Assembly: GCA_902386255.1 (NCBI GenBank)
Contig: CABMII010000121.1
Coordinates: forward strand, 1-32,718
Direction: 5' to 3'
Length of the DNA: 32,718 nucleotides
From: an uncultured archaeon
GTDB taxonomy: Archaea > Halobacteriota > Methanosarcinia > Methanosarcinales > Methanoperedenaceae
The notes beneath the pieces were generated by a model that made no database searches, was not told the origin of the DNA, and was given only the letters and a program-made list of their open reading frames with translations. Shown piece by piece: positions 3,503 through 32,718 of this stretch. The stretch's first letter is position 1. The number at the start of each line of letters is the position of its first letter. A program made the position numbers and the translations under genes.

Positions 3503-3524
3503 AATCTATATAGAACTATATAGA
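3503..3524. promoter_or_regulatory. AT-rich CTATATAG double element upstream of the ppk1 operon
   Basis: Two CTATATAG motifs stand 11 bases apart (3506-3513 and 3517-3524). They resemble elements before pstS-pilin 2, the pilus operon and both phoU genes. They could be TATA boxes, a regulator site or both. The distance to the ATG at 3388 implies a leader of roughly 90 bases if they act as the promoter. Confidence 0.4.
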
Positions 3525-3667
3525 AAAAAAAAGTATTTTCACTTTTTTCTCTTAATTTAATTCAACTAACCTTTCCGAAAAATAATATCGCTATATATAC
3601 TATAGAGATAATTTTTATATGTTAATTGAGCATTCAGTAATATTGCACGTCAAAGGGCGGGTAAACC

Positions 3668-5200: not shown

Positions 5201-5600
5201 ATGAAGAATAAATGCCTATGCGAATCAAGAACCTCAGAGCTGTGCTGCCCGGGCGATGAAAAACTTCGCAGGGAATGGCTCCTGAAACTGGAAAAAGAGC
5301 ATAAATCCCTAAGGCCTTCTTCAAAGGAAATCGCCAGGAAGTTAAGGCTTCTCTCAAATCCGAACAGGGTTGAGATTCTGCTGATGCTTATCGCTCAGGG
5401 AGCACTGTATGGACGAGATGGCAAAAAAAATGAAGATTCAAAAATCGGCTATTTCCTATCATCTGGCATTGTTGAAAGACAATGACATGGTATGTGTAAA
5501 AAAGCGCTCTCGTTTCGCTTTTTATGCACTTTCCCAGAGCGGAAAGAAGGCGATACTGGCTTTTGGAGATATACAGTCAAATTTTCGGATCTTTTCGTAG
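5201..5600 (+). pseudogene. ArsR-type winged-helix regulator broken by frameshift(s)
   Basis: The frame from the ATG at 5201 encodes a cysteine-rich N-terminus (CLCESRTSELCC) and the first HTH helices (ARKLRLLSNPNRVEILLMLI). At about 5408 the reading must shift by one base to continue into MDEMAKKMKIQKSAISYHLALLKD and the wing (FAFYALSQSGKKAIL). Removing one T near 5408 restores a continuous ArsR domain of about 130 aa. After 5583 the downstream sequence reads on in the original frame (FVVSPVDEPDISSP), so a second, compensating indel is possible. The Cys pairs suggest a former metal or redox sensor. Sequencing error is an alternative to real decay. No programmed-slippage heptamer was seen. 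Confidence 0.7.
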
Positions 5601-5661: not shown

Positions 5662-6240
5662 TTATGAAAAAAATGTTAATTTTCTCTGCGGCATGGAACT
5701 CCTATTGAAACCTATGTTTGTCCACCCCTTCCCGAAAAAACCTTCACATTCCATCTTTTTTCGCTCAAGAATATCATAAAAGACAAAAATCATACCTATT
5801 ATTTTATTCCGGTCATCAAGAACAGGAGTGCCAATTATATCAACCGGAATCTCCATCCCATACCTGTTATGGAGGGCTGCGTGTTCGGAAAGACCAAAAA
5901 ATGCGCCTTCCCGCCAAACTTTTATCACAGGATTTTCTGCTTCTTTGCCTGTTTTCTCATCGATTATGTTAAAAATCACTTTCAATGGTTTTCCGACCGA
6001 ATCATTCTTGCTCCACCCCGTTAAAGCCTCAGCAAAGGGGTTTATAAGTTTGATAATCCCTTTTTCATCAGTGGCAATTACTGCATCCCCTATGTTATTT
6101 AGTATGGCAGCCTGCCATTTTTCGCTTTCTATTAATTTTCTTTCCATAATTGAAGAATAGCCATAACTTTTAAGCCTGTTCTGGCCATCCTTAACAACGA
6201 CCATCTCATCATCCACAACGAGTATTTTTGTTTCTGCCAT
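5662..6240 (-). CDS. Truncated receiver-PAS sensor protein
   Basis: A 192-aa product that starts like a response-regulator receiver (KILVVDDEMVVVKDGQNRLKSYGYS, quoted here as two parts: KILVVDDEMVVV and KDGQNRLKSYGYS). It loses the rest of that domain and passes straight into a PAS domain (AAILNNIGDAVIATDEKG through IFVFYDILERKK). No histidine kinase or output domain follows. The last 30 residues lie antisense to the decayed ArsR 3' region and look like run-through. The product is probably a remnant of a longer REC-PAS-kinase sensor. The ATG at 6240 is preferred to a TTG nine bases upstream. A perfect TAGAAT-GTAT-ATTCTA dyad lies about 70 bases upstream. Confidence 0.7.
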   Translation of the reverse strand: MAETKILVVDDEMVVVKDGQNRLKSYGYSSIMERKLIESEKWQAAILNNIGDAVIATDEKGIIKLINPFAEALTGWSKNDSVGKPLKVIFNIIDEKTGKEAENPVIKVWREGAFFGLSEHAALHNRYGMEIPVDIIGTPVLDDRNKIIGMIFVFYDILERKKMECEGFFGKGWTNIGFNRSSMPQRKLTFFS

Positions 6241-6308
6241 AATTGTCAACCATCGTTTTTACTGGCGAATATAAATTATGATATTCATGATTAAATATAT
6301 AATCGACA

Positions 6309-6329
6309 TAGAATGTATATTCTATATAG
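6309..6329. promoter_or_regulatory. TAGAAT-N4-ATTCTA dyad followed by TATAG
   Basis: A perfect inverted repeat with 6-base arms and a GTAT centre, flowing into a TATATAG motif. It lies between the start of the PAS gene (6240) and the 3' end of the prepilin peptidase gene (6361), so it most likely serves the PAS gene. Confidence 0.4.
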
Positions 6330-6360
6330 AATTTCAGGTTATTGGATTCTTGTGCCCGGC

Positions 6361-7107
6361 TCACAGGAGAAATTTAATCAATGCAAATATCAGGTCGCCA
6401 TAGAACGCAGCCGTGAAAAACCCCAGGGTTATGGAAATCATAAACGGCAAGCCCGGTGTAACCCAGACTTCATCTTTAATTAAACCTTTTTCTAACAGAC
6501 CATTAAGCTCCCTGATTTTTTTCTCGTTAATTTCTACACCGCCCCATTTAAAACGGGATTGAACCCTGTTCTCTACCACTTCAAAATCCTGAATCAGCCG
6601 GATATGTCTATCTGCAAGCTTTGAAATCTTAGTCTTATAACCCATGAAGATGTAAACGGGATTATCAATATGCCAGCCCATTTTCGTTATATTAAATATT
6701 GCTAACCCGATGGGAACGACAATTGTCAGCAGGGCTGAGTTGCCAAGTATACTCAGGGCAAAAATATCATACAGAGGCTTATGCAATGGAAGGGCATATC
6801 CGAAAGCATGGAATGCCGGATAAGCCGGGAAAATCATCGACAGGACAATAAGCGATTTGGCGTCAGCACCACCGAAGGCGCCGATTTTAAAAAGGATGTA
6901 AACAAGCAGGAACATGAACACTGCTGAAATAAATAAAGGATGAAGGGAAGATATCTTGTATATCGAGTAATCGTATGAGAAAAAAAAGATGCTGCCGACA
7001 AGCATTGTTAACCATACATTGTTGGATACGCTGCGCTTTTTGATATCAGAATAACATGCGTAAAGCAAAAATGGTATGCAGAATAAAATCTTTAAAGTTT
7101 CGAGCAT
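6361..7107 (-). CDS. Archaeal type IV prepilin peptidase (FlaK/EppA/PibD-like, A24 aspartic protease)
   Basis: A 248-aa polytopic membrane protease predicted to cut the N-terminal leader of type IV pilins before assembly. The two catalytic aspartates of the A24 family are visible: D21 in CYSDIKKRSV after the first membrane helix, and D82 in GGADAKSL (the GxGD-type motif). The C-terminal VTPGLPFMISITLGFF segment matches the archaeal A24 C-terminal region. A hydrophilic loop of about 60 residues lies before it. The ATG at 7107 is 20 bases after a small zinc-ribbon gene, so the two are probably co-transcribed. Likely substrates encoded nearby are the PstS-like pilin fusions (7583-8701 and 12147-13109) and the pilin at 20442. 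The enzyme class is seen in the sequence; the substrates are inferred. Confidence 0.9.
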   Translation of the reverse strand: MLETLKILFCIPFLLYACYSDIKKRSVSNNVWLTMLVGSIFFFSYDYSIYKISSLHPLFISAVFMFLLVYILFKIGAFGGADAKSLIVLSMIFPAYPAFHAFGYALPLHKPLYDIFALSILGNSALLTIVVPIGLAIFNITKMGWHIDNPVYIFMGYKTKISKLADRHIRLIQDFEVVENRVQSRFKWGGVEINEKKIRELNGLLEKGLIKDEVWVTPGLPFMISITLGFFTAAFYGDLIFALIKFLL

Positions 7108-7126
7108 TATCTATTCCATCATTTCC

Positions 7127-7297
7127 CTAACAGCTTCTCAGCGCAATTTGCCTGTGCTGCACTACCCTTGTTCTGGGTATTTCAAATTCGGCTTTGCACG
7201 AGTGACATTTGTATTTTTTTGTGGATTTGGAACGGACGGATATGCTCAGGCTGCTGCATTCAGGGCAGAGTTTGCGTAACCGTTCTTTCAGTTTCAT
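7127..7297 (-). CDS. Small zinc-ribbon protein (56 aa)
   Basis: A 56-aa basic protein with two CxxC knuckles, CPEC (residues 11-14) and CHSC (31-34), spaced as in a rubredoxin-like or transcription-factor zinc ribbon. The tail (PRTRVVQHRQIALRSC) is basic. The ATG at 7297 is 27 bases after the preceding 58-aa gene, and its stop is 20 bases before the prepilin peptidase. Nucleic-acid binding or a scaffold role are both possible; I cannot name a family member. Confidence 0.7.
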   Translation of the reverse strand: MKLKERLRKLCPECSSLSISVRSKSTKKYKCHSCKAEFEIPRTRVVQHRQIALRSC

Positions 7298-7324
7298 GAT
7301 TTTTCCGGATGTCGCCGACCGGAT

Positions 7325-7501
7325 TTATTTTCTTGGAACCCTTGCTATAATCCTGTCTCCAGGTACCCTGTCCCACCTGTTAAAGCTGCTTATGTACAGT
7401 ATATCCTCATTGCGGCTCGTTTCGATGAACTGGACATCTCCTTCCATGATTTCGCCTGATTCGAGTTTGAATTTTACTATGTCTCCTGTTGAAATTTCCA
7501 T
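7325..7501 (-). CDS. Unknown 58-aa protein, first gene of the prepilin peptidase operon
   Basis: A short acidic/basic beta-type protein (MEISTGDIVKFKLESG at its N-terminus, ending VPGDRIIARVPRK). GGTGG lies six bases before the ATG at 7501. The alternating pattern suggests a small beta-barrel such as an SH3/Sm-like fold, but that is only an impression. It is followed by the zinc-ribbon and prepilin peptidase genes on the same strand with gaps of 20-27 bases, so all three should be one operon. A hairpin/U-tract terminator separates it from the pstS-pilin gene upstream. Confidence 0.6.
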   Translation of the reverse strand: MEISTGDIVKFKLESGEIMEGDVQFIETSRNEDILYISSFNRWDRVPGDRIIARVPRK

Positions 7502-7533
7502 AAATCCACCGGCCTTTTTTTTATGGCTGCGCT

Positions 7534-7570
7534 TGAAAAAAAGTAATTATGAGGATTTCTCCTCATAATT
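7534..7570 (-). terminator. Hairpin plus U-tract terminator of pstS-pilin 1
   Basis: Perfect 11-bp stem AATTATGAGGA / TCCTCATAATT with a TTTC loop (7545-7570). On the minus strand it is followed by ACTTTTTTTC. It lies 13 bases after the pstS stop codon and before the next gene on that strand. The bacterial-style hairpin is unusual in archaea, where U-tracts alone often suffice. Confidence 0.7.
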
Positions 7571-7582
7571 GAATTTGTTTAT

Positions 7583-8701
7583 TTAATTCTGGTAGTAGCC
7601 TGACGACTCTACGATCTTCTGCCCATCAGGGCTCAGTACAAAGTCAAGGTATGCTTTGACAGCGCCTGCTGGTACGCCCGGCTGGCTGTAGTAGTAAAGG
7701 TCTCTTGCAAGTCCTTTATTGCCGCTTACGCTCTTGCTTGATGCATCGTAGGTTCCGCCTACGCCCTTGTTGAGCTTGCTTGCTACAGTGCCGTTCTGTG
7801 CGGCTGGGATGACCGCAGCGTTTCCATTAATTCCACCTGCTGCAAATCCAATATCAACGAAGCCGATTGTGTTTTTAGTTGTTGCAATGTAGTCTCTGAT
7901 TCCCTGGTTGCCCGATTGACCGATTGCCTTAACGCTTGACTGGAACTGTGTGGTTGCGCTATCGCGAAGACCCATATAATCTGAAAATACATCTTCCGTA
8001 CCGCTGTCATCTGAGCGCTGGACTGTTGTGATGTCAGCTGTCAAACCACTTACGTTGCCTTTTGGTATAGTACCGGTTACGTACCCTTGTTTCAATTCAC
8101 CGTAGGTCAGATTAAGTACTCCACCAGCAGACAGACTTTCATTGGTGCTGTCATTTATGGTGCCTGGGACAATGTTTATAGAAGTAGCGCCGGCTATATT
8201 CCCTGCGACTACAATCAAGCCGGTTCCGATCTTTGTCTCATAGACGAATGCATTCGCTCCTGTTCCCTGGATGACTGCTTCGGTCCTGCTGGGGTAATTG
8301 AGAGTTGTACCTGTGGACGAATCTGAACCGCCAGCAGGATCCCATATAGACGAGCTTGCGCCTACATCAATCAATTTGTTATAGACAGCCGCCTTGCCAT
8401 ATCCTGAGCCTCCGCCGCCGAGGGTAATTGTTACACTGGGGTATATCTTACTGAATGCCTGGATTTCGTTCTGGGAAACTGGTAATACGGTAGTACTGCC
8501 CTTGATGACGAAATCTCCCGATACGCTCAAGTCTTTGTTTGACGATTGCGCTTCTGCATTCTTCTGCGAGCTCTGGACAAGTATGCCCACGCCCGCTGCT
8601 GCTACCACTGCAATCACGATTAATATCAGTGTTGCTATGGCAGGGGAAATGGCTTTAGAGTCCTGCAGGAACGCTTTTATTCCTTTAGTATTTATTTTCA
8701 T
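7583..8701 (-). CDS. PstS-like phosphate-binding protein with type IV prepilin N-terminus (pstS-pilin 1)
   Basis: A 372-aa protein joining two modules. Residues 1-42 form an archaeal prepilin signal: a basic, hydrophilic leader ending DSKA, then ISPAIATLILIVIAVVAA as the hydrophobic helix, with probable cleavage after A17. From about residue 62 the protein is a PstS-type periplasmic binding protein: IKGSTTVLPVSQ (68-72 core), GGGGSGYG (95-102), DVGASS (112-117) and RSDDSGTEDVF (229-239). These are the loops that hold phosphate in PstS. It should be processed by the peptidase at 6361-7107 and either built into a pilus or anchored by its helix. GGAGG lies before the ATG at 8701. Its promoter is the last member of the 220-bp tandem array. 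No pstCAB genes are nearby. Domain content is seen; pilus incorporation is inferred. Confidence 0.92.
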   Translation of the reverse strand: MKINTKGIKAFLQDSKAISPAIATLILIVIAVVAAAGVGILVQSSQKNAEAQSSNKDLSVSGDFVIKGSTTVLPVSQNEIQAFSKIYPSVTITLGGGGSGYGKAAVYNKLIDVGASSSIWDPAGGSDSSTGTTLNYPSRTEAVIQGTGANAFVYETKIGTGLIVVAGNIAGATSINIVPGTINDSTNESLSAGGVLNLTYGELKQGYVTGTIPKGNVSGLTADITTVQRSDDSGTEDVFSDYMGLRDSATTQFQSSVKAIGQSGNQGIRDYIATTKNTIGFVDIGFAAGGINGNAAVIPAAQNGTVASKLNKGVGGTYDASSKSVSGNKGLARDLYYYSQPGVPAGAVKAYLDFVLSPDGQKIVESSGYYQN

Positions 8702-8852
8702 TTTCTATCCTCCAATCTTTTTTGGTTTAGTGATGCTGACCGGTATTTGCCCATATTATTTTCATCTATCTTCCATTGAAGTTTGGCGGACACGGATTTA
8801 TAGCACCACCAGCATACCCCTAATTTCATAAACTATTTTAGTGAAACCCTCA

Positions 8853-8878
8853 TAAACTATATAGAGTAATATAGTCTA
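8853..8878. promoter_or_regulatory. Palindromic promoter/operator 1, pstS-pilin 1 promoter
   Basis: First copy of the array palindrome, slightly diverged: TAAACTATAT, six bases, ATATAGTCTA. Read on the minus strand it precedes a second box (ATAGTTTATG) about 20 bases on, then the roughly 120-base leader of pstS-pilin 1. The palindrome includes a CTATATAG core that could be the TATA box, so a bound protein would compete with TBP. Confidence 0.6.
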
Positions 8879-8881
8879 TTT

Positions 8882-9057
8882 TTATTCTCCACAGAATGAA
8901 ACAAGTGCCCTCTGGTTGGAGCTCGAAGGGGCTGAGGGCACTTTTTCATAGTTGGTGAAGCCCTCTACTAAGGCAAAAAAAGTGAGATATGTTAAGGGCT
9001 TCATGTTCCTCCTACGGGTCGTGATTTAGCGGCATGGTCCTATTGCCGCCAGATTAC
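8882..9057 (-). ncRNA. Array unit 1: structured leader/small RNA with mini-ORF (40 codons)
   Basis: Read on the minus strand, the unit starts about 25-30 bases after palindrome 2. It has a 14-bp hairpin at 9057-9021, then AGGAGG, then the ATG at 9004 of a 40-codon frame starting MKPLTYLTFF and ending at 8882. The start (ATGAAGCCC) pairs with GGGCTTCA at 8956-8963. A second strong stem, 8903-8943, follows. The mini-ORF could be a leader peptide, a tiny protein or incidental. Homologous units follow at about 220-bp intervals, in which the structure is kept better than the peptide. Confidence 0.5.
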
Positions 9058-9080
9058 TCTAATTCCATAAACTATCCCCA

Positions 9081-9106
9081 TAAACTATATAGAGCCATAT
9101 AGTTTA
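9081..9106. promoter_or_regulatory. Palindromic promoter/operator 2
   Basis: Perfect inverted repeat TAAACTATAT, spacer AGAGCC, ATATAGTTTA. The second conserved box ATAAACTAT (plus strand, 9067-9075) lies beside it, as in the other copies. Both strands carry a CTATATAG core. Confidence 0.65.
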
Positions 9107-9114
9107 TTTTTTTG

Positions 9115-9267
9115 GGAAAAGAAACTGGTGCCCCTGTGATAGGATTGGGATTTTTGGGGCACCGTTTTTTACTGAAGCCCTGTATTAGAGGAAAAAAGTA
9201 CGATTAAGGGCTTCATATTCCTCCTGCGGGGTGATTTAGCGGCATGGTCTTATTGCCGCCAGATTAC
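9115..9267 (-). ncRNA. Array unit 2: structured leader/small RNA with 15-codon mini-ORF
   Basis: Same order as unit 1 on the minus strand: hairpin 9267-9231, GCAGGAGG ribosome site, ATG at 9216 opening a 15-codon frame (MKPLIVLFSSNTGLQ), start codon stem 9173-9180 with 9208-9215, then the stem GGTGCCCC/GGGGCACC at 9127-9163 followed on the minus strand by AGTTTCTTTT, a possible terminator. On the plus strand that last stem is followed by GTTTTTT, so transcription from either side could stop here. Confidence 0.5.
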
Positions 9268-9301
9268 ACTAATTCTATAAACTATTTCATGGTAATCCTC
9301 A

Positions 9302-9327
9302 TAAAGTATATAGAGCCATGTAGTTTA
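9302..9327. promoter_or_regulatory. Palindromic promoter/operator 3
   Basis: TAAAGTATAT, spacer AGAGCC, ATGTAGTTTA: the array palindrome with one change in each arm. The neighbouring ATAAACTAT box is at 9277-9285. Confidence 0.6.
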
Positions 9328-9334
9328 TTTTTTA

Positions 9335-9484
9335 GGAAAAGAAACTGGTGCCCCTTGTATAATGGATAGGACTTGGCTTTATGGGGCACCGTTTTTTAAT
9401 GAAGCCCTTTTAGAGGAAAAGGAGTACGGTGAAGGGCTTCATATTTCTCCTCTGTTTGTGGGCTATTCTCTTTGAGCCACAGAC
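9335..9484 (-). ncRNA. Array unit 3: structured leader/small RNA with 10-codon mini-ORF
   Basis: The minus-strand hairpin at 9484-9454 sits where units 1 and 2 have theirs, but with different bases on both sides of the stem. AGAGGAGA and ATG 9442 follow, with only 10 codons (MKPFTVLLFL). The start stem pairs 9400-9407 with 9434-9441. The stem GGTGCCCC/GGGGCACC spans 9347-9390, followed on the minus strand by AGTTTCTTTT. The mini-ORF length is not conserved between units. Confidence 0.5.
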
Positions 9485-9521
9485 TGTTGTAATATCAGAA
9501 ACTATTTTATTATAATCATCA

Positions 9522-9547
9522 TAAACTATATAGAGTCATATAGTTTA
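9522..9547. promoter_or_regulatory. Palindromic promoter/operator 4
   Basis: TAAACTATAT, spacer AGAGTC, ATATAGTTTA, a perfect 10-bp-arm palindrome. The second box is diverged (AGAAACTATT at 9497-9506). Confidence 0.65.
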
Positions 9548-9548
9548 T

Positions 9549-9697
9549 TTATCTTAAAGAAAAAGAGCAGGCTTTCCGTCCGGGTAAAAGAGAGGTATTA
9601 TGAGCGGGAAGCCTGGTATGAAGCCTCTGGAAAAATATGATTGAAGGCGGTTTTATGGGCTTCATGAACCATTGAACATCTGCCAGGATAATAAAAC
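9549..9697 (-). ncRNA. Array unit 4: diverged member with 38-codon mini-ORF
   Basis: Keeps the start stem (9618-9625 with 9658-9665) and a 12-bp terminal stem (9568-9579 with 9604-9615, CAGGCTT/AAGCCTG type) followed on the minus strand by CTCTTTTTCTTT. The 5' hairpin and the ribosome site before ATG 9665 are missing. The frame (MKPIKPPSII...) is 38 codons. It is probably the oldest or most decayed copy. Confidence 0.4.
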
Positions 9698-9701
9698 ATG
9701 C

Positions 9702-9732
9702 TCCTATAGAAAAAATAGGACTATATAGTTTA
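9702..9732. promoter_or_regulatory. Half-site and hairpin at the ppk2 end of the array
   Basis: TCCTAT (9702-9707) pairs with ATAGGA (9715-9720), and a half palindrome CTATATAGTTTA follows at 9721-9732. It is the likely promoter of ppk2 on the plus strand and may also drive unit 4 on the minus strand. Confidence 0.45.
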
Positions 9733-9819
9733 AATTATTTCCTAAGACCGGGGTGAACATGACGAAGATTTATGCCTGAAACCAACATATAGAGCTTGAG
9801 ATTATCATAAGTGATATGG

Positions 9820-12146: not shown

Positions 12147-13109
12147 TTAATTGAATTCCCTCGTATAACTTATGTATCCATTCTTCTCTATAATATCCTG
12201 TCCTTCAAATGACCTTGCCCATTTTATGAAGGAATCCGAAAGCGAAGGATTGCCTCTTGTAATAAAGTAGAGCGGGTGTGCAAGCTCCAACGGGTAATAG
12301 GAGTTGTTCACATCGCCGCTGGTAGCCGCCTGTGTGAAATTGGAATAGCTCATGTTTGTGTATGTTTGGTTATTATCCTCATCGATGAGACCTGCTATAG
12401 AAACGCTTCCAGGATTAGCTTGAGCATAACCATATTCTATAAATCCTATAGCCGTATTATCATTTTTCACGGCCTCAAGCATGCTGGCGCTGCCTGAAAC
12501 CGCATTAATGTTCGGGCTGATTGAAGTAGTATTGATATTGATGTACTGCATAAATGCCTGTTGTGCGCCAGAAGAACCTGCCATTTTATAGGCTGTAATT
12601 GAGGGATTTGTCCCGTTGTAAGTTCTCCACAGGTCGCTTTTATTAAAGATGCAAACCAGGGCGCATTGATTCTTATTGACAATGACCACAATTCCCGAAT
12701 AACCAAGATTTTGAGCTACAAGGTCTGGGTATTCCCCCATTTCATCCTGAGAAGGCAATCTATCCGAGACTCCTATATCTGCTATCCCTGTACCCACCTC
12801 GCCTATGGAGATATTCGAAGTCGCATTAATTGTTGCACTCTTCTGTAACTGGAGAAACACGCCGAGGCTCTTATCATTATAAGCGTTCACAAGAGGCTCC
12901 ACTGCAGCTTCGGCGAGGTCTGAACTTATGATATTTATCTTCATGGATGTACGATCTGCACTGTTACTCTTGCCTGTCACCTTATCGGTCTGGGAATTCA
13001 TACTCTGCATCATGCCGGAGAGAAATGCCACGCTTCCAGCCACTACCATAATAAGCATCAAAGAGGCGACCACCGGCGATACTGCATTTGTGTCCTTAAT
13101 AAGCTTCAT
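12147..13109 (-). CDS. Divergent PstS-like binding protein with type IV prepilin N-terminus (pstS-pilin 2)
   Basis: A 320-aa protein with the same architecture as pstS-pilin 1. Leader MKLIKDTNA with probable cleavage after A9, then VSPVVASLMLIMVVAGSVAFL as helix, then a substrate-binding domain (GIADIGVSDR near the middle, KNDNTAIGFIEYGYA, and a C-terminal FIKWARSFEGQDII). Several phosphate-contacting loops differ from PstS: no GSTTV or GGGSG, and AGSSGAQQAF replaces RSDxSGT. It may bind another anion or a phosphate ester, or bind weakly. The ATG at 13109 is chosen because a perfect ATCTATATAGAT promoter element at 13146-13157 lies inside the longer frame (to 13190). It stands next to an exported protein gene with its own promoter region. 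Confidence 0.85.
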   Translation of the reverse strand: MKLIKDTNAVSPVVASLMLIMVVAGSVAFLSGMMQSMNSQTDKVTGKSNSADRTSMKINIISSDLAEAAVEPLVNAYNDKSLGVFLQLQKSATINATSNISIGEVGTGIADIGVSDRLPSQDEMGEYPDLVAQNLGYSGIVVIVNKNQCALVCIFNKSDLWRTYNGTNPSITAYKMAGSSGAQQAFMQYININTTSISPNINAVSGSASMLEAVKNDNTAIGFIEYGYAQANPGSVSIAGLIDEDNNQTYTNMSYSNFTQAATSGDVNNSYYPLELAHPLYFITRGNPSLSDSFIKWARSFEGQDIIEKNGYISYTREFN

Positions 13110-13145: not shown

Positions 13146-13157
13146 ATCTATATAGAT
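13146..13157. promoter_or_regulatory. ATCTATATAGAT palindrome before pstS-pilin 2
   Basis: Perfect 12-bp palindrome 37 bases before the ATG at 13109. The identical 12-mer is found at 15785-15796 before the pilus operon, so it may be a shared operator, a shared TATA box, or both. Confidence 0.55.
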
Positions 13158-13202
13158 TATAGAGTCCTCGTACCAAACCGCACCCGACAACGTTATAGTG
13201 GC

Positions 13203-14597
13203 TCAATCCCCTCCAGAATAAGCGGGCTGGTTGCTGGGAGCAGTCTGCCCTGACGTTTTCCCTGCGCCCCCCAGCATTTTCAGGAGCTGCGCTGGAATGT
13301 TTTTCAGTTCTGCCACTATAGATTCAAAGAATCCAGGTGTGCCAGAAGTATTTTTAGGATTTTCGATTGAGGAAGAGGCAGAATTATCAGTAGACGTTGC
13401 ATGAACATCCGCGGAAGCGGGCTTTGCAAATGTTATTTCCGCAGGATTTGACATGCCAGAACCTGTAATATTTTGCACACCTTGAGGATTTGCTTCGGGG
13501 GAGTTCCCAGGCTTGTATTCTTTAAATGTGAACTTGGCCGGCGGCAATGATATGTTATCCGAAATATCATTTAGTTTCAACATATAACTGTTGTTGTAAA
13601 AGTCTCCAGGCTGGAGAACTCTGCTGAAGTTCATCTCCCCGTTAATAATCTCTGTTCCGGGAGGAAGAGAATCCCATACTTTTACCAGCGCTGCCCTGCT
13701 TCCATTGTTCTTCAAAGATAGATTTACTGTTACATTGTTTACCACCCTGTCGGCTGTTTTTGATAAAATAATATCTGAAGAACGCAAAGTGAAACTTATG
13801 TTGCCTGTGGACAGGTTATATGTTTTATTACCAAAGACTATATAAAGCGTTGCAGGAGGGAGAGTATATTCCGTATCAGGTGTAGGTTTTTGCGGCTTGA
13901 TTAAATACTGGGCCTGCCACAACTCGCCACTGTGCAGGGATATGCTCCACTTCAAATCCTGCGGTTCTGATACAAAGCCATCTCCAGCTTCGTCTACCAT
14001 CCTGATATATGAAAAATTTAATTTTCCAATATTTTCAATAGCTATAGTTACGGGAATAAACGGATAGGATGGAAATACATTAGCCGGATCGGGTACAACC
14101 TTGGTTATCGTCAGGTTATTTACAATATCAAGTTCAGTACTTACATTCTGTACTATCGTTATATCAAGACTTACTGAAGGCGTAGTTATATAATAACCGG
14201 AAGTGATATCCAGTACACCTATTTTGATCGAACCTTCGTTGTCTTCATATGTAGTTTCATTGGTAAATTCGGCGCCGCCGATTGTGCGGTTCACCTTTGA
14301 TAATAAGGCGTCCATTACATGGCTGCCATCCCTGGAAACATTCAAAAAGACATAATCATTACATCCATAACTTGTTCGAACATAATTAGTAGTATGTTCG
14401 TCGTTGTACCATGTTCCATTGTTGCATATTTCAGGGTGTTCTTCTACAGTTCCGGGACTGAAATCAACAGCTGTTATATTATAAGGGGGAAAACTTGCGC
14501 TCTCACCCCATTTAAGAGTTATACTGTTTTCTTCCCCGGACGCCGCAGCCACCAGAATTATATTCAGCCCAATAATAAGCAACAGGATAGCCCTCAT
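13203..14597 (-). CDS. Exported glycoprotein-like surface protein
   Basis: A 464-aa protein with a Sec-type signal peptide (MRAILLLIIGLNIILVAAASG). The body is beta-rich with many N-x-S/T sequons, suggesting an N-glycosylated extracellular protein. Segments such as IENIGKLNFSYIRMVDEAGDGF and LKNNGSRAALVKVWDSLPPGTEI resemble repeated CARDB/DUF11-type adhesion modules. The C-terminal 80 residues are low-complexity (Ser/Pro/Ala/Gly) with no clear anchor. It lies between pstS-pilin 2 and the AbrB-PhoU gene on the same strand. A pilus-associated or S-layer role is inferred from context only. Confidence 0.75.
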   Translation of the reverse strand: MRAILLLIIGLNIILVAAASGEENSITLKWGESASFPPYNITAVDFSPGTVEEHPEICNNGTWYNDEHTTNYVRTSYGCNDYVFLNVSRDGSHVMDALLSKVNRTIGGAEFTNETTYEDNEGSIKIGVLDITSGYYITTPSVSLDITIVQNVSTELDIVNNLTITKVVPDPANVFPSYPFIPVTIAIENIGKLNFSYIRMVDEAGDGFVSEPQDLKWSISLHSGELWQAQYLIKPQKPTPDTEYTLPPATLYIVFGNKTYNLSTGNISFTLRSSDIILSKTADRVVNNVTVNLSLKNNGSRAALVKVWDSLPPGTEIINGEMNFSRVLQPGDFYNNSYMLKLNDISDNISLPPAKFTFKEYKPGNSPEANPQGVQNITGSGMSNPAEITFAKPASADVHATSTDNSASSSIENPKNTSGTPGFFESIVAELKNIPAQLLKMLGGAGKTSGQTAPSNQPAYSGGD

Positions 14598-14634
14598 TGC
14601 CTGAAAATAGAATCAAGCCCTACTAAGCTTTTTT

Positions 14635-14659
14635 GTATATAGTGTATATAATCTATATA
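14635..14659. promoter_or_regulatory. TATATAGTGTATATAATCTATATA element
   Basis: An AT-rich repeated element (halves TATATAG and CTATATA) upstream of the exported protein gene (ATG 14597). It overlaps the very end of the AbrB-PhoU gene on the same strand, so the exported protein probably has its own promoter. Confidence 0.4.
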
Positions 14660-15669
14660 CTTTTAGAGAAGTCGATGGCTAACTCGGCAATGTTTGCAGC
14701 ATAATCCCCAATCCTTTTCACGCTGTCTGCTATAAGCCCTATGGACATGACTGCATCAGGATCCAGAGTTGTTGCCATGTGTCTTATTCTGTGCAACTCA
14801 TCACCTATTTTTTTATGTTCTTCGATAACCCTGTTTGCAAGCTCTACATTGCATTTTGCAAAGGAACTGACAGAATCATTGACAAGCTTATCAGAGATGG
14901 TACCAATTTTTACGAACTCATCGAGCGTTTCATGAGGAATTTTTTCCCGGGATTCCAGCATTATGCTGGCAATCTTACCCGCATGGTCTGATACGCGCTC
15001 TAACTGGTCACTTGCCAACCTGTAGTAGAAGGCACCTGCCAATCCCAGTTCACTCTTTTCGGATATTCTTGAATGGAGCAGGATATCCATGAACTGTTTT
15101 GATATCAACAGATGAAGGCGGTCTATCTCATCGTCCTGCCTTATGACCTCAGAGGCGATTGAAACATCCCTCGTCTTCATCGCCTTGATGGTATTATCAA
15201 GCATCCACTGCGTTTTTATATGCATGCGCCGGAAACTCATATCGATAGGCATATCTCCCGGATTCAGGATATCCTGGATAACTATCCTCTCGTGTGTTTC
15301 TTCGATAATCTCAATACCTATCAATTTTTTGACGATAGCAGTTATATCTTTTCTCTGCTCCAGTGTGATATTTTTGGCTTTAAGCTCGATCACGCGATAC
15401 CCTGCAACATAGGTGGCTATTATATCTCTTATCAGCGGCTCGCCCGTCCTCCCATCTATGGTTAAAGTCTTTGGACCCTGAGGAGCAAAACCGCCGTTTG
15501 AAGTTAAAAGAAGAGTTCCATCCTCCTGGGGATGCATGTGAACAAGGGAACCGGAGGTTATCCCGGTACTGGCAGCCCACTTCTTGGGAAGGGAAACAAC
15601 GAATGTTGATTTGCCAGTCACCTGGACTTTTCTTATCTCTGCATTTGTTTTTCTAATTTTATCACTCAT
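14653..15669 (-). CDS. AbrB-PhoU fusion regulator (copy 1)
   Basis: A 338-aa protein. Residues about 8-50 form an AbrB/SpoVT-like DNA-binding swapped hairpin (VTGKSTFVVSLPKKWAASTGI). The rest is alpha-helical with two PhoU-type repeats (RDVSIASEVIRQDDEIDRLHLLISKQF and GLIADSVKRIGDYAANIAELAID at the end; key D/E and R residues of PhoU metal sites are present). PhoU proteins couple phosphate status to transport and regulation; the archaeal AbrB fusions are thought to act directly on DNA. The ATG at 15669 is preferred to a TTG at 15711. It is divergent from the pilus operon. A paralogue lies at 21307-22308. Regulation of the local palindromes is inferred, not shown. Confidence 0.88.
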   Translation of the reverse strand: MSDKIRKTNAEIRKVQVTGKSTFVVSLPKKWAASTGITSGSLVHMHPQEDGTLLLTSNGGFAPQGPKTLTIDGRTGEPLIRDIIATYVAGYRVIELKAKNITLEQRKDITAIVKKLIGIEIIEETHERIVIQDILNPGDMPIDMSFRRMHIKTQWMLDNTIKAMKTRDVSIASEVIRQDDEIDRLHLLISKQFMDILLHSRISEKSELGLAGAFYYRLASDQLERVSDHAGKIASIMLESREKIPHETLDEFVKIGTISDKLVNDSVSSFAKCNVELANRVIEEHKKIGDELHRIRHMATTLDPDAVMSIGLIADSVKRIGDYAANIAELAIDFSKSI

Positions 15670-15715
15670 CTTTACATAAGCTTGCCGGGGACTATTTATG
15701 TTTTCTCCCAAGAAT

Positions 15716-15731
15716 CTATATACTATATATA
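15716..15731. promoter_or_regulatory. AATCTATATACTATAT element before AbrB-PhoU 1
   Basis: CTATATA-type promoter element 47-62 bases before the ATG at 15669. It lies in the 163-base divergent region shared with the pilus operon. Confidence 0.4.
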
Positions 15732-15784
15732 AAATCAGTAGAATCCATTTTAATTTTATTATGTTTAAAAAAATAGTGTATATT

Positions 15785-15796
15785 ATCTATATAGAT
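15785..15796. promoter_or_regulatory. ATCTATATAGAT palindrome before the pilus operon
   Basis: The same perfect 12-bp palindrome as at 13146-13157. It is placed 36 bases before the ATG at 15833, which would give a leader of only 10-20 bases if it is the TATA box. No ribosome site is visible before that ATG, which fits near-leaderless initiation. Confidence 0.55.
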
Positions 15797-15832: not shown

Positions 15833-17590
15833 ATGAAATCATTGGTTGAAGGTTTTAATCTTGGCAGTTTATCTCAATATCCAAAACGCATTGGGGGGCA
15901 TCTTTTTCCAAGCCGAACACGAGGAAATGGAAATGGCAACGGGAAGAAACATAATGGGAATGATGGGCTTGAAGTGCATCTTAAGCAGCTTGAAGAACAA
16001 ATCATGGGCAAGCGGGAGGAGAGTAAACAAAATATCAGTGAAATACTCAACTCCTTCAAAGAAAAGCCCATCCGTGAATTAAACATAACCTATCCGATCA
16101 ACCCGCCTTACCAGTTTGTTCAAATCGCATTTGATAGCAATGCCGAAGAACTTCTGTATATACCACATGAGCCTGTTCTTGATAAAGCAGAGAAGGCGCT
16201 CTTCCAGAGAATAAAGGGTATCTTTGAGAGAGAATTGAATTCGGAGAGCTTACAGGAAAACCGGGAGATGTATATCGAAGAAAGGGCAGCAGAAATTATT
16301 GACACATATAGCATAAGAGCAGGCAAGGTTGCCCAGAATAAAGTGCTTTATTTTCTCAAGAGGGATTTCATAGGCTTTGGCGAGATAGACCTGTTGATGA
16401 ACGACCCTTTAATAGAGGACATAAGCTGCAACGGTCCAAACAGACCTGTTTATTTGTATCACCGCGTCTTTGAGTCCCTGCGGACACAGTTAAGTTTTGA
16501 GAGTGAATACAGGCTAAACTCTTTTATATTGAAAATGGCCCAGATTTCAGGAAGACATATATCGGTGCTTGACCCCATAACAGACGCTACCTTGCCAGAT
16601 GGCAGCAGGGTTAACCTCACCTACAGCAGCGAGGTGACCAGGAAAGGCTCGTCCTTCACTATCCGGCGGTTCAAGAACGAACCAATCTCCTTTGTAGATA
16701 TAATGAAATACGGTACCTTAAATGCAAAGCAGCTTGCCTACCTGTGGTTGTTGCTGGAATACAACAGGTCAATACTTGTCTCGGGCGGCACCGCCTCAGG
16801 GAAAACAACATTATTAAACGGCATCTGCCTTTTCATAAAACCCGAGGCAAAGATTGTGAGCCTTGAAGATACAGCAGAGATAAATATACCCCATGAGAAC
16901 TGGATACAATCTGTAACGAGGAGCGGTTTTGGAAGAGGGGAGGGGTCGTCCAAACGCGGGGATATCGGTTTATATGAGCTGTTAACCGCCGCATTGCGGC
17001 AGCGTCCTGAATACATAATAGTCGGAGAAGTCCGGGGGGCTGAGGCGAGCACTCTTTTCCAGGCAATCTCAGTCGGTCATGCCGCTATGGGTACAATACA
17101 TGCAAGCTCTATTGGAGAGCTCGTTAATCGCATCGAATCACCGCCCATGAACGTTCCCCGCAGCCAGCTTGCAAGTCTTGATCTTGCGATATTTATAAAC
17201 AGAATCCGTATTAACAACAGCTATGCCAGGCGGATTGTGAACATGGTGGAGATACATGGGATTGATTCCACGACAAGGAATCTCGTCACGAATAATGTTT
17301 TTTCTTGGGACCCTTATAGCGATTCTTTCAACTACAAAGGGAAAGGCTCTCTTCTGGAAGATATAGCCGGTGAACACGGAATCAAACTTGAAGATTTAGA
17401 GAAGGAGATGGAACAGAGGGAGAAGGTGATTGAGTGGATGTCCAGGCAGGGAATTACCCATTACAGGGATGTGTCAAAAAACCTCAAGGCATATTACAAT
17501 TCTCCGAGTGATTTCATGAAAAAGATAATAATGCCAAAAAAAGTACGCAAGCCGAAGGCCTTAAAGTCTGGTAAAAACGTCAAACCATGA
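15833..17590 (+). CDS. Type IV pilus assembly ATPase (GspE/TadA family)
   Basis: A 585-aa secretion ATPase that powers pilus extension or retraction from the cytoplasmic face. The N-terminal 150 residues are variable, with a Gly/Asn-rich stretch near 30-45. Then the NTD2 segment (GFGEIDLLMNDPLIEDISCNG), arginine-finger region (TLPDGSRVNLTY, SSFTIRRF), Walker A GGTASGKTTLLN (about 317-328), Asp box SLEDTAEI, Walker B RPEYIIVGEVRG (about 391-402) and His box AAMGTIHA are all intact. It opens a three-gene operon; the stop overlaps the next start by four bases (ATGA). The family cannot be split cleanly into pilus versus archaellum, but the lack of archaellum genes nearby favours a pilus. Confidence 0.95.
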   Translation: MKSLVEGFNLGSLSQYPKRIGGHLFPSRTRGNGNGNGKKHNGNDGLEVHLKQLEEQIMGKREESKQNISEILNSFKEKPIRELNITYPINPPYQFVQIAFDSNAEELLYIPHEPVLDKAEKALFQRIKGIFERELNSESLQENREMYIEERAAEIIDTYSIRAGKVAQNKVLYFLKRDFIGFGEIDLLMNDPLIEDISCNGPNRPVYLYHRVFESLRTQLSFESEYRLNSFILKMAQISGRHISVLDPITDATLPDGSRVNLTYSSEVTRKGSSFTIRRFKNEPISFVDIMKYGTLNAKQLAYLWLLLEYNRSILVSGGTASGKTTLLNGICLFIKPEAKIVSLEDTAEINIPHENWIQSVTRSGFGRGEGSSKRGDIGLYELLTAALRQRPEYIIVGEVRGAEASTLFQAISVGHAAMGTIHASSIGELVNRIESPPMNVPRSQLASLDLAIFINRIRINNSYARRIVNMVEIHGIDSTTRNLVTNNVFSWDPYSDSFNYKGKGSLLEDIAGEHGIKLEDLEKEMEQREKVIEWMSRQGITHYRDVSKNLKAYYNSPSDFMKKIIMPKKVRKPKALKSGKNVKP

Positions 17591-18447
17591 ATACTTTCTA
17601 CAAGAAGCTATGCTACCGCATACTGGGGAGATACATAGAAGGAAGCAGTCTGGAAAATGAATTCTCAACGCTCCTTTTCCAAGCAGAAATTAAAATGAGC
17701 GGAGGGATGTTTCTCTCAATCCTGTTAACAAGTTCTCTCATACTGTCCCTTGCAGTTGGAGCTGTTTTTTACATTCTTTCCATCAATCTGGTTCCTCCTC
17801 TTTTTGCTGCCCTGCTGGCTTTTGCAGCTCCCGCAGGGGTCGTCTATTTCCAGCTCACCTCAAAAATACAGGATAGGCGTCTTGCCATCGACAGCAATCT
17901 ACCATTCGCTATCAGTCACATGTCTATTCTGGCTTCGATAGGTACGCCCCCCTTGAATCTTTTGCGTATGGTTGCTGCTGCCGACCACGGCGCTGTCTCT
18001 GCTGAGCTAAAAAAGATTCTATATTCTGTGGATACCCTGGGCAAGGATGTTATAGCTGCCATCCTGGATGTTGCGAGAACTACCCCTTCCCCGCACATGC
18101 GCTCCCTGCTAATAGAAATCACAAGAATGATCCACACCGGCGGGGGCATGGAAATATACTTGCACAACAGGCTTGATCAATTACTGGATATAAAACGGCA
18201 GGTGCAAAAAGAACTCAACGAGTCCCTTGCCCTTTTCAGCGAGATGTATATCACGTTTATAAGCACGGGTGTTATCATGGCCGTGCTTGGCGTAACTGTA
18301 GGGAGCATTCTTATGGGAGGGCAGATAGGACCGTTCCAGGCAAGTGATCTCTTTGGCATATTCGTATATTTCATTATGCCTGTAACAAATGCTCTCTTCT
18401 TTGTGCTTCTGATGGTAGTATATTCGCCTCACGGGGAGCAGAAATGA
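17587..18447 (+). CDS. Pilus platform protein, TadB-like (T2SSF domain)
   Basis: A 286-aa membrane protein with a type II secretion F domain. Two hydrophobic helices lie near residues 42-85, the cytoplasmic helical bundle (NLPFAISHMSILASIGTPPLNLLRMVA through LLDIKRQVQKELNESLALFSEMY) follows, and C-terminal helices lie near 205-280. It is the inner-membrane platform that the ATPase turns or pushes. Together with the next gene it corresponds to the two halves of a FlaJ-like double T2SSF protein. ATGA overlaps on both sides show tight translational coupling. Confidence 0.9.
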   Translation: MNTFYKKLCYRILGRYIEGSSLENEFSTLLFQAEIKMSGGMFLSILLTSSLILSLAVGAVFYILSINLVPPLFAALLAFAAPAGVVYFQLTSKIQDRRLAIDSNLPFAISHMSILASIGTPPLNLLRMVAAADHGAVSAELKKILYSVDTLGKDVIAAILDVARTTPSPHMRSLLIEITRMIHTGGGMEIYLHNRLDQLLDIKRQVQKELNESLALFSEMYITFISTGVIMAVLGVTVGSILMGGQIGPFQASDLFGIFVYFIMPVTNALFFVLLMVVYSPHGEQK

Positions 18448-19415
18448 TAGATTTAAAAAAAATATATAACAAATATAACTTAAAAAGAGAATACATTATC
18501 CTGCTTCTTCCGGCATTAATAGCGGTCATCTTGCTTGTAATAATAATTGTGCTCCCTTCCGGGCAGGAAAATACCGGATATATATCAGAAGAAGGTTTTA
18601 CAAATGCATCAAAAGAAGTAACAATCACAAAGGACCAAGGGGTGTACAAAAATCTTGACCAGGTGTTAGTATTTGCTGTCCTGATAGCGATAATACCATA
18701 CAGCATAGATGTTTATCTTGCCAGGAGAAGGATTAGAAGATACGAGGAAGAGTATATCGGCTTTCTATATGAGCTCTCTGAACTCCTGCGCGGCGGTCTT
18801 GACCCCCTGAACGCCATAAAGGAGATTGCTTCTCCAGCAATAGAGACAGAACGCGGCCTGCACGCCCTCAGTCCTCACTTAAAAAAAGCTGCAGCACAGA
18901 CCGAGTGGGGCGTTTCTTTTGAAAGTGTTATTGCCAGCATGGCGGAATCCCTGAAAAGCCCGCTGATTAGCAAATACAGCAAACTCATCGTCCAGGCATC
19001 GAGGCTTGGGGCTATCAGTCCGGCTATCATCCTGAAAAGTGCAGATGACCTTGAAAAAACCCTGCAACTGGAGCATGAGAAGGAAGCTGCGCTAAAGGAA
19101 TACCTTTTCATAATCTATGCAGCACAATTCATCCTCATCGGCTTGATATATATCCTTAACTCCTCTCTTCTTCCTTCAATCCTCAATATGTTCAAGATGG
19201 GAACTGGGGGCGGAACATCTTTTGGCATCGCGGCTCCGAAAATGAATCTTGCCAGCTTTAAGGTCGGTTTTTTCCATGTGATAATGATTAACGCCTTCGC
19301 AAGCGGCATCATAGCCGGACAGCTCACCGAGGGTAAAGCAAGGTATGGATTAAGACATTCGGTTATATTGATTTTAATAAGCTATACCGCCAGCCTTGCA
19401 TTTCTGCTGAGGTAA
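18444..19415 (+). CDS. Pilus platform protein, TadC-like (T2SSF domain)
   Basis: A 323-aa second T2SSF-type membrane protein. Two N-terminal helices (about residues 15-40 and 70-90) are separated by an exposed loop, followed by the F domain (YEEEYIGFLYELSELLRGGLDPLNAIKEIA) and three C-terminal helices. It completes the ATPase-TadB-TadC core. Its stop is six bases from the stop of the convergent AAA+ gene. No secretin or alignment genes are expected in an archaeon with a single membrane. Confidence 0.88.
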   Translation: MIDLKKIYNKYNLKREYIILLLPALIAVILLVIIIVLPSGQENTGYISEEGFTNASKEVTITKDQGVYKNLDQVLVFAVLIAIIPYSIDVYLARRRIRRYEEEYIGFLYELSELLRGGLDPLNAIKEIASPAIETERGLHALSPHLKKAAAQTEWGVSFESVIASMAESLKSPLISKYSKLIVQASRLGAISPAIILKSADDLEKTLQLEHEKEAALKEYLFIIYAAQFILIGLIYILNSSLLPSILNMFKMGTGGGTSFGIAAPKMNLASFKVGFFHVIMINAFASGIIAGQLTEGKARYGLRHSVILILISYTASLAFLLR

Positions 19416-21265: not shown

Positions 21266-21290
21266 AATCTATATATATTATAAACTATCA
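21266..21290 (+). promoter_or_regulatory. Promoter/operator of AbrB-PhoU 2
   Basis: AATCTATATATATTA runs into TATAAACTATC, which holds the TAAACTAT half-site of the 8.8-9.7 kb array. It lies 17-41 bases before the ATG at 21307, so the leader must be very short. Confidence 0.45.
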
Positions 21291-21306: not shown

Positions 21307-22308
21307 ATGGAAGCACGTAAAGTTTACGTAAGTGGTGGCTCAACCTATGTAATTTCACTGCCTAAAAAATGGGTTAATAAGACTAATTTAAAGGCAGGTG
21401 ACTCTCTGGTGGTTACTGAACATGGCAGTTCATTACAGATCGAGACAGGTGTAATTGAAAAAGAGTCAAAAACTAAGGATATTAAAATCTCACAAATAAC
21501 ATCAAGTGAAGCCCTTGAGCGTATATTAATTGCTTTTTATCTGGTGGGTTATGATACGATCAAGATAAAGCTAGACAGAAAGGATCATCTTGCATATAGA
21601 GAGATCATACGGAATATTCTGGATTATCTGATAGGGGTGGAAATAGTCGAGGACACTAACGAAGCAATGACCCTTGAAATAATGCTTGATTACAAACGCA
21701 TGAGTACCATGCAGATACTCCAGCGAATGTTTTCCATAGACAAATCGATGCTTCTTGATCTTGGCAAGGCTTTAAAAAACATGGATATCGGGCTTGCAAA
21801 AGATATAATAATAAGAGAGAAAGAAATCGACCGTCTCTATTTTTTAGTTGTCAGGCAACTTAAGAGTGCTGTAGAATACCAGCAGGTAGCGGAAAAACTT
21901 GGAATAATATCTCAAAAAGATTGTCTTGGGTACAGGATTGTAGTTAAAGATCTTGAAAGAATCGCAGACCATATAGAAAACATAGCAAAGAGTTACATCA
22001 AGTTAATTGATTTTCAAAAAGCAATGCAACTGAACGATTTTATAGATCTCAACAATAATATAGTTGCGACTTTCGAAAAAGCAGTTCAGGCATTATTTAC
22101 AAGAAATGATGAAATGGCCGAGATAGTTTTCCATGAGTTGAAAAAGGTTGAGAAATCTCAATCCGATATTTCAAAAGAATTGTTTAAGATAGAAGATATT
22201 CAATCTGCCATTTTAATGAAAGCAATGTTTGATAGCCTTGGAAGAATAGCGAGTTACAGCGGAGATATAGCAGAGGTAGCTATCAATATGTCCACTGAAA
22301 TATCTTAA
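21307..22308 (+). CDS. AbrB-PhoU fusion regulator (copy 2)
   Basis: A 333-aa paralogue of the protein at 14653-15669. The N-terminal SpoVT/AbrB hairpin is VYVSGGSTYVISLPKKWVNKTNL, given here by its ends VYVSGGSTY and SLPKKWVNK. The helical PhoU repeats end in MFDSLGRIASYSGDIAEVAINMS, matching the copy 1 C-terminus. Acidic and Arg residues of the PhoU repeats are kept (EKEIDRLYFLVVRQL). It is likely a phosphate-status regulator, either of the pilus/pstS genes or by heteromerisation with copy 1. It stands alone downstream of the pilin gene with its own promoter. Confidence 0.88.
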   Translation: MEARKVYVSGGSTYVISLPKKWVNKTNLKAGDSLVVTEHGSSLQIETGVIEKESKTKDIKISQITSSEALERILIAFYLVGYDTIKIKLDRKDHLAYREIIRNILDYLIGVEIVEDTNEAMTLEIMLDYKRMSTMQILQRMFSIDKSMLLDLGKALKNMDIGLAKDIIIREKEIDRLYFLVVRQLKSAVEYQQVAEKLGIISQKDCLGYRIVVKDLERIADHIENIAKSYIKLIDFQKAMQLNDFIDLNNNIVATFEKAVQALFTRNDEMAEIVFHELKKVEKSQSDISKELFKIEDIQSAILMKAMFDSLGRIASYSGDIAEVAINMSTEIS

Positions 22309-31075: not shown

Positions 31076-31618
31076 GTGGTCAAAATCAAGAACAAGCGGA
31101 AGCTAAAAGTTTATTTGAAGGATTATGATTCAGGAAGTATTTCTCAGGATTTGGCAGCCAAGTATCTCGGTATTACACCCAGATGGTTCAGACATATCTA
31201 CAAAATATACAAATCAACCGGATCCATTCCTGCGATTGGCGTCAACCTGGGACGGCCAAAGAAGGAAGTTCCTGAAGAATGGAAGGGAATTGTCAAGCAG
31301 GAATATGAAAAATTCAGACAAAATGCATTGTATCAGGAAAAAACGATTTTTGCAGAATGCAAGATAAGAATACCTCACAATACAATACACAAAATTATGC
31401 TTGAATTCGGATTTGCTAAGGAACAAGAGAGCAAGCAAAAACGAAGGAAGCCCTGGATAAGATACGAAAGGAAGCATTCACTATCAGCAGTTCATATTGA
31501 TTGGCACGAGAGCAAGGTCAATGGAAAACAACTGTGCACTATTTTAGATGATGCCTCCAGAAAAGTGCTGCAGGGTTTCTTTCATTTCATCCGCACTCAA
31601 TTCCTTTTCAGTTTCTAA
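31076..31618 (+). pseudogene. Truncated DDE transposase/integrase (rve type)
   Basis: The N-terminal HTH domain (YDSGSISQDLAAKYLGITPRWF, key residues S, L, G, I) and linker are followed by the beginning of the catalytic core: HSLSAVHIDWHESKVNG (first Asp in HIDW) and CTILDDASRK (second Asp in LDDAS). The homology stops at about 31570, and the frame then reads into the antisense of the AbiE-like toxin gene until 31618. The catalytic Glu region is missing, so it cannot transpose. The GTG at 31076 is the likely start; no terminal repeats were recognised. Confidence 0.82.
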
Positions 31619-32492: not shown

Positions 32493-32718
32493 AATTATGA
32501 ATGTAACATTATGTACTTATTAGTTTAACTATATAGGTAATTCAAGGTATTTATATAGCTTACATTCATATCGGGATGAAATCTTTTGCCATAAAACCGG
32601 AGTTTATAAGAAATCATCAAAATCAAATAGCAGCGCTAAGTAAACTGTGGGTCTAACAAAATCTTTATTCAGTTGGGAATGAATGTTCCAAGCTGAAGTT
32701 TGCCAAAAATTTCCGCCG
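32493..32718. other. Region upstream of the AbiEi-like gene
   Basis: 226 bases to the window edge. It holds CTATATAGG and TTATATAGC promoter-like elements near 32528-32560; no reading frame or repeat that I can support was seen in the rest. Confidence 0.4.

Follow-up and report, generated by a model that had tools for sequence, protein, structure and literature searches.

The window analyzed here, a stretch of 32,718 bases, is the entire contig C121 of a Candidatus Methanoperedens genome (2,601,349 bases in 172 contigs, about 2.60 Mb; 96 percent complete), and it carries a phosphate gene cluster whose promoters share a short mirror-symmetric word, CTATATAG (hereafter the core), with ATCTATATAGAT as its extended 12-mer form; we regard this word as the candidate operator of a phosphate regulon. 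Two genes of the cluster encode pilin-like PstS proteins, PstS1 (7583..8701, minus strand) and PstS2 (12147..13109, minus strand), both of them phosphate-type solute-binding proteins whose N termini resemble those of archaeal pilins. The N termini of PstS1 and PstS2 match PF07790 (Pilin_N) below the curated cut-off (E 0.0059 and 0.019, respectively). Both genes lie close to a prepilin peptidase gene and to pilus genes, and both proteins might perhaps form phosphate-binding pili. The pilus genes include one for a PilB-type ATPase (15833..17590, plus strand), followed by those for two T2SSF proteins (17587-18447 and 18444-19415). Two further genes encode AbrB-PhoU proteins: AbrB-PhoU 1 (14653..15651, minus strand; the longest open reading frame (ORF) begins at 15711) and AbrB-PhoU 2 (21307..22308, plus strand).

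The two copies of ATCTATATAGAT given in the preliminary description of this DNA are both exact. The first (13146-13157) precedes the PstS2 ATG at 13109 on the minus strand, a start that is conserved in relatives, and the second (15785-15796) precedes the PilB ATG at 15833 on the plus strand and also lies 5' of the divergent AbrB-PhoU 1 gene; the motif–start distance, said to be similar, is 36 bases in either case. The six related places listed in the same description (3503, 6309, 14635, 15716, 20372 and 21266) are confirmed, give or take about 10 bases, but in several of them the sequence is CTATATAC or CTATATAT rather than the exact core; exact cores that it had not listed lie at 8857, 9085, 9526, 9721 and 32529. 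The sites are arranged as follows: (i) a tandem operator, CTATATAG-AA-CTATATAG, with a 10-bp step (3504..3525) lies upstream of a 165-aa ORF and ppk1, with an exact site in 3/3 orthologous loci; (ii) a single operator (6320..6331), also exact in 3/3 orthologous loci, lies upstream of a PAS-domain gene (5662-6249, minus strand); (iii) degenerate sites with one mismatch (14637..14662) lie upstream of ORF 13203-14597 (minus strand), with at most one mismatch in 7/7 orthologous loci, two of them exact; (iv) a degenerate tandem site, CTATATACTATATATAA (15716..15735), precedes AbrB-PhoU 1, and a degenerate site CTATATAT (21267..21278) lies at -38 of AbrB-PhoU 2, where all seven orthologous loci have at most one mismatch and none is exact; (v) the pair AACTATATAGGT and ATTTATATAGCT, 22 bp apart (32527..32560), lies upstream of ORF 31911-32492 (minus strand). 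This last ORF belongs to a two-gene pair (31544-32492) that has a counterpart at 6703-7844 of locus L064: by eye, both pairs look like helix-turn-helix (HTH)/nucleotidyltransferase genes, both lie in phosphate clusters with operator sites upstream, and neither gave a Pfam match. Additional sites fall within a tandem array described below.

At the scale of the genome, the core occurs at 33 places, ten of which are in the window, where 0.29 would be expected from the outside rate (Poisson P ~1e-12); because the window was itself chosen for the motif, this P value is optimistic, and a fair comparison is given by the gene-anchored tests in relatives. The core spelled in reverse order occurs at 102 places. 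All ten cores of the window are intergenic if translation of PstS2 begins at the conserved ATG; the ORF in its longest form, which opens at 13190, overlaps one core. Of the 23 core places outside the window, 20 fall inside an ORF of at least 80 aa. Three copies of the 12-mer exist in the genome, the third (C160:4099) being flanked by an ArsC-like gene for a low-molecular-weight (LMW) phosphatase and by a gene for a PHP-domain protein, with a Ppx/GppA-type gene just before. When up to two mismatches are allowed, the window contains 14 matches to the 12-mer, whereas 100 dinucleotide-preserving shuffles gave 2.5 on average and never more than 8. The variant CTATATAC, one letter from the core, is likewise raised in the window (five intergenic copies versus two in control DNA).

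This control was drawn from elsewhere in the genome (20 stretches totaling 295 kb), and it bears on the reading in which the motif is merely a variant TATA box that long AT-rich promoters render locally frequent. The word is indeed TATA-like and lies 36 bases ahead of two ATGs, but its distribution argues against such a reading. Intergenic copies of CTATATAG were found within 250 nucleotides upstream of 7/32 ORFs of at least 100 aa in the window and of 0/259 in the control (Fisher P 1e-7), so that the outcome that the preliminary description had named as fatal to its proposal, namely a motif equally common before unrelated genes, did not occur. The usual TATA word TTTATATA lies upstream of 3/32 and 4/259 of these ORFs, respectively, and ordinary TATA-like words in general have similar rates in the two sets, whose intergenic GC content is identical (0.36). 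With strict ORF masking, 9 intergenic cores remain in 6.2 kb of the window and 1 in 40 kb of control DNA; when 120 nucleotides are allowed for over-long starts, the window has 10 cores in 9.8 kb (shuffle mean 0.33) and the control has 1 in 70.7 kb (shuffle mean 1.05). The intergenic density is thus 10.2 per 10 kb in the window versus 0.14 per 10 kb in the control, and on these counts we reject the plain TATA-box reading. Moreover, alignments of the pstS2, PHP and phoA promoters display a second conserved AT-rich, TATA-like block about 10-25 bp downstream of the motif, which suggests a possible position of the motif immediately 5' of the core promoter. Together with the helical-turn spacing of tandem sites (see below), these observations make a mere TATA variant highly improbable.

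Our comparison set comprised 185 genomes of the order, 31 of which belong to the genus (the genome of the window included). Ten contigs of relatives, retrieved by their similarity to AbrB-PhoU 1 and without use of the motif in the choice, contain 29 cores in 145 kb, compared to 2.5 from shuffles. The core lies at -45/-46 in 7/7 orthologous PstS2 promoters, one of them with a mismatch and the other six exact. It is kept in the orthologous pilB promoters as well, in the exact form at -46/-47 in 4/6 and with one mismatch at -49/-51 in the other two; the pairing of pilB with PstS2 recurs in relatives, the core lying at -45 to -47 from both starts in most of them. It is also found at -62 in 6/6 promoters of the PHP gene and, exact, at -94 to -97 in 3/4 promoters of phoA. 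In the aligned upstream regions the core ranks among the best conserved blocks. Over the 31 genomes of the genus, the 12-mer occurs at 33 places and the reversed word at 14. Twenty of the 33 places are promoters of phosphate clusters (one, at a contig end, assigned by its flank only), eight are inside ORFs and five are flanked by genes not known to be connected with phosphate; since the reversed word itself has 14 places, the 13 that are not phosphate promoters look like chance occurrences.

The association with phosphate genes extends beyond the genus. The word CTATATAGNNCTATATAG occurs at seven places in 6/185 genomes of the order, all adjoining phosphate genes: two places in family f2, before an operon encoding a PhoU protein, a PHO4-type (PiT) phosphate permease and a DUF47 protein; one in family f5, before pstS-C-A-B-PhoU; and four in Methanoperedens, two on the ppk1 side and two in the neighborhood of an LMW-phosphatase/ArsC-like gene. 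We also collected 30 loci anchored on PstS, 29 of which have enough upstream sequence. An exact core is present within 600 nucleotides upstream in 12 of these 29 (16 cores), against a shuffle mean of 0.7 and a maximum of 3, and it is absent from the pstS bodies (25 kb) and from the 600-nucleotide downstream stretches (18 kb). In L211, L212 (f4) and L215 (f2), pstS is separated by exact core sequence from a divergently oriented AbrB-PhoU gene next to it. Note that L211 and L212 were selected with cores already known near their PstS places, and L202 with a core near its AbrB-PhoU match; the remaining 17 regions of the set L201-L220 were selected blind to cores.

Several observations weigh against an operator reading of the word. 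No exact core was found within 200 nucleotides of ppk1 (0/3 loci), psiE (0/5), bacA (0/2) or the prepilin-peptidase gene (0/6), some of which are perhaps downstream in operons, and no exact core is present in the 18 Methanoperedens loci anchored on an AbrB-PhoU protein resembling paralogue 2 (L183-L200). In the genome of the window, two intergenic cores precede other genes, and the pst genes on contig C25 have no exact core. Among the 24 PstS and AbrB-PhoU genes of L201-L220, eight have an exact core and six have none even at one mismatch in the stretch scanned. Finally, the exact core reaches only 12/29 PstS regions, a set in which ATATATAT (16) and CTATATAT (16) are likewise enriched, which indicates that the consensus is looser outside Methanoperedens. 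Nevertheless, the word is found upstream of phosphate genes rather than of genes at large. Altogether, the sequence comparisons make it likely that CTATATAG/ATCTATATAGAT is a phosphate-regulon operator in Ca. Methanoperedens and that the order's other families use a less strict version of it. The local enrichment and the recurrence of the phosphate-gene link in other families thus support the class to which the preliminary description had assigned the motif, that of a Pho-box-like operator.

The copies of the word tend to be phased. Around 87 non-identical sites, with up to two mismatches and on both strands, further copies cluster at offsets 9 (28 copies) and 10 (29), where shuffles give means of 1.6-1.8, and there is a weaker concentration at offsets 18 and 19 (9 and 11 copies); exact further copies lie at offsets 9 (2), 10 (14) and 21 (4). 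These counts are not independent because the sites are related by descent. The step, 9-10 or 18-21 bp, is that of one and two turns of the DNA helix. The bacterial Pho box, bound by PhoB or PhoP, has a known consensus made of direct repeats with an 11-bp step. The archaeal element resembles it in being a likely operator of pst, phoA, phoU and ppk genes with repeats in helical register, but differs in its 9-10-bp step, no second copies with at most one mismatch being present at offset 11 around the 87 sites, and in its genomic context: a search for PF00486 (Trans_reg_C, the PhoB-type winged helix) found no match in the genome, the same search being positive in 10/14 control genomes. In haloarchaea, PhoU regulators are described as having the pho-box of the Halobacterium pst promoters for their binding motif (PMC6560208, where Furtwangler et al. 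2010 is cited). This pho-box is likewise an archaeal operator located before Pst transporters, in a different class of archaea, the likeness being one of description in that source. A literature search limited to abstracts and passages turned up no account of CTATATAG as an operator in archaea, nor of the two-hairpin RNA dealt with below.

Which protein could read the operator? The AbrB-PhoU proteins probably do, to judge from gene neighborhood and distribution. Besides the two genes of this type in the window, the genome has a third on C25, and AbrB-PhoU-like proteins were found in 174/184 genomes of the order, most of the matches listed spanning nearly the whole model. PhoU domains (PF01895) are present in the AbrB-PhoU proteins; in the AlphaFold model of paralogue 1 the PhoU part is confident, and its top Foldseek matches are crystal structures of PhoU. 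The presumed DNA-binding half is less well defined: paralogue 2 passes the PF04014 (MazE_antitoxin) threshold with a score of 31.6, but paralogue 1 remains below the cut-off (21.7 versus 24.7), and its residues 1-59 have a predicted local distance difference test (pLDDT) score below 50, so that the AbrB fold lacks structural confirmation; both points count against this assignment. An exact core lies near 7/12 paralogue-1 loci and near 0/18 other Methanoperedens loci, which makes paralogue 1 the better candidate. A protein of similar architecture is known in Thermococcus, where the SpoVT/AbrB regulator TK2245 is listed among the chromosome-associated proteins (PMC7325993); it likewise joins an AbrB-family part to a PhoU domain, and the passage of PMC7325993 that lists it assigns no operator to it. 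The phosphate operator could instead be read by another factor encoded in the cluster, for instance the ArsR-like HTH protein recognized by eye at 5201-5600, and an LMW-phosphatase/ArsC-like gene is often nearby. We consider this doubtful: the ArsR-like sequence is split here over two overlapping frames, as in a pseudogene or through an assembly error, yet the sites persist, and the divergent neighbor of pstS in L211, L212 and L215 is AbrB-PhoU and not ArsR.

Part of the operator sites belongs to a feature that was absent from the preliminary description and in which the operator is most densely used, an array of four tandem units of about 220 bp located between pstS1 and ppk2 (8821-9740). Each unit opens with ATAAACTATATAGAG-N2-ATATAGTTTAT or a variant of it. 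On the plus strand, 28-bp operators head units 1 (8852..8879, ATAAACTATATAGAG..ATATAGTCTAT), 2 (9080..9107) and 4 (9521..9548), and a degenerate operator, GTATATAG, heads unit 3 (9301..9328). An extra operator (9719..9732) follows the last unit, 83 bases ahead of the ppk2 ORF. The putative noncoding RNA units themselves (8895..9011, 9118..9223, 9338..9449 and 9565..9672, plus strand) comprise two hairpins, as in unit 1. The arms of hairpin 1 vary by unit (AGTGCCCTC, GGTGCCCC, CAGGCTTTCC and, in a relative, GGCGCCC) with the pairing kept, and hairpin 2 is nearly invariant (TGAAGCCC..GGGCTTCA); unit 4 has a different first hairpin and the same second one, and matches the covariance model weakly (E 0.27). 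By blastn, the repeat is present in 9/31 genomes of the genus, this one included, and a covariance model of nine units gave 15 matches in 8/185 genomes of the order, all within the genus. No Rfam family matches within the window at its gathering score.

The tandem repetition, the inverted operator arms and the strong folding of the antisense strand would also fit a DNA repeat array, i.e. a binding platform or the remnant of a mobile element, in which the hairpins are only inverted repeats. The pattern of substitutions, however, favors an RNA. In an alignment of nine units sharing one type of hairpin 1 (A2), 93.7 percent of the cells are paired and 6/23 pairs are changed on both sides; in hairpin 1, 5/13 pairs show such compensatory changes. 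The covariation score of the whole structure is 0.167, versus 0.104 in shuffles (0/500 as high) and at most 0.092 in slid controls. An alignment of 13 units (A1), in which the two types of hairpin 1 are misaligned, gave no covariation. When 20 of 31 aligned covariance-model matches were recounted (the other 11, antisense or weak, being dropped), 403/444 cells were paired, a figure biased by the fit of the matches to the model. Moreover, the repeats sit at phosphate clusters in the nine genomes instead of being scattered. We therefore hold a DNA repeat array to be somewhat unlikely, and the units are probably noncoding RNAs under phosphate control. The folding of individual units lies 2.1-4.4 standard deviations below that of shuffles, but the antisense strands of two units behave alike (3.3-3.5), and the covariance model also yields weak antisense matches of array units; as the antisense strand folds strongly too, the strand of the array was deduced from the position of the operators.

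A role of the array as a leader of ppk2 was rejected as a general rule, ppk2 being found in 3/31 genomes of the genus, once as a fragment, and the next gene being mostly on the opposite strand. Because the arrays of relatives mostly run toward such opposite-strand genes, we view the array as a stand-alone element and not as an mRNA leader. It co-occurs with AbrB-PhoU 1, being present in 9/13 genomes with paralogue 1 (assigned by E-value class, one match partial) and in 0/18 without, a correlation confounded by the location of both in one cluster. Several RNA tails contain CCTCCT after hairpin 2 (8997-9030 and 9209-9240). The complement of this hexamer, AGGAGGAAT, forms the ribosome-binding stretch of 5/195 ORFs in the phosphate loci of relatives, three of them phoA, and of 1/282 control ORFs of this genome, that of an ammonium transporter (L084 3728). 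Since such sequences are common and the tails vary among units, an anti-Shine-Dalgarno role is only a lead. Among archaea, Haloferax has a noncoding RNA, sRNA132, that is linked with phosphate starvation and with a phosphate ATP-binding cassette transporter (PMC6560208); that RNA, as far as it is described in this source, is a single gene confined to Haloferax, unlike the tandem two-hairpin units found here, known from sequence.

The rest of the window has two other features of note. Two similar TraB/PrgY-type membrane proteins are encoded near the contig ends (3875-5125 and 29543-30859, the second recognized by eye), and a transporter-like sequence (major facilitator superfamily by eye) at 24274-25607 appears broken into several frames, with a partly repeated stretch.

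How might these elements work together? The operator would act either alone or in groups with steps of 9-10 and about 18-21 bp, and with sites one or two turns apart several protein subunits could occupy one face of the DNA. The AbrB/MazE-like N-terminal part of AbrB-PhoU would bind the operator and its PhoU part would report phosphate status; binding beside or over the B recognition element and TATA box would then repress or activate transcription. The pilus ATPase, the pilin-like phosphate-binding proteins, the polyphosphate enzymes, alkaline phosphatase and the tandem hairpin RNAs would thereby respond jointly to phosphate. Our tentative proposal, quite possible though not firmly held, is a one-component phosphate switch of the order that operates without a two-component system, in which AbrB-PhoU directly reads phased CTATATAG arrays and in which, in Methanoperedens, phosphate-binding pili, polyphosphate enzymes and the tandem two-hairpin RNAs share the operator.

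Such a switch would be of interest in several respects. Methanosarcina mazei induces phoA and pstSCAB-phoU under phosphate starvation, and the regulation of ppk1, ppk2 and ppx in archaea is stated to be unknown in the corresponding passage of the same source (PMC6864096). With an operator defined and a candidate regulator that is widespread, archaeal ppk regulation becomes directly testable in a tractable methanogen. The shared operator would also link type IV pilus assembly to pilin-like phosphate-binding proteins in an anaerobic methane oxidizer. Finally, the analysis brings to light a putative family of structured tandem RNAs without an Rfam match, which is the most unusual part of the locus.

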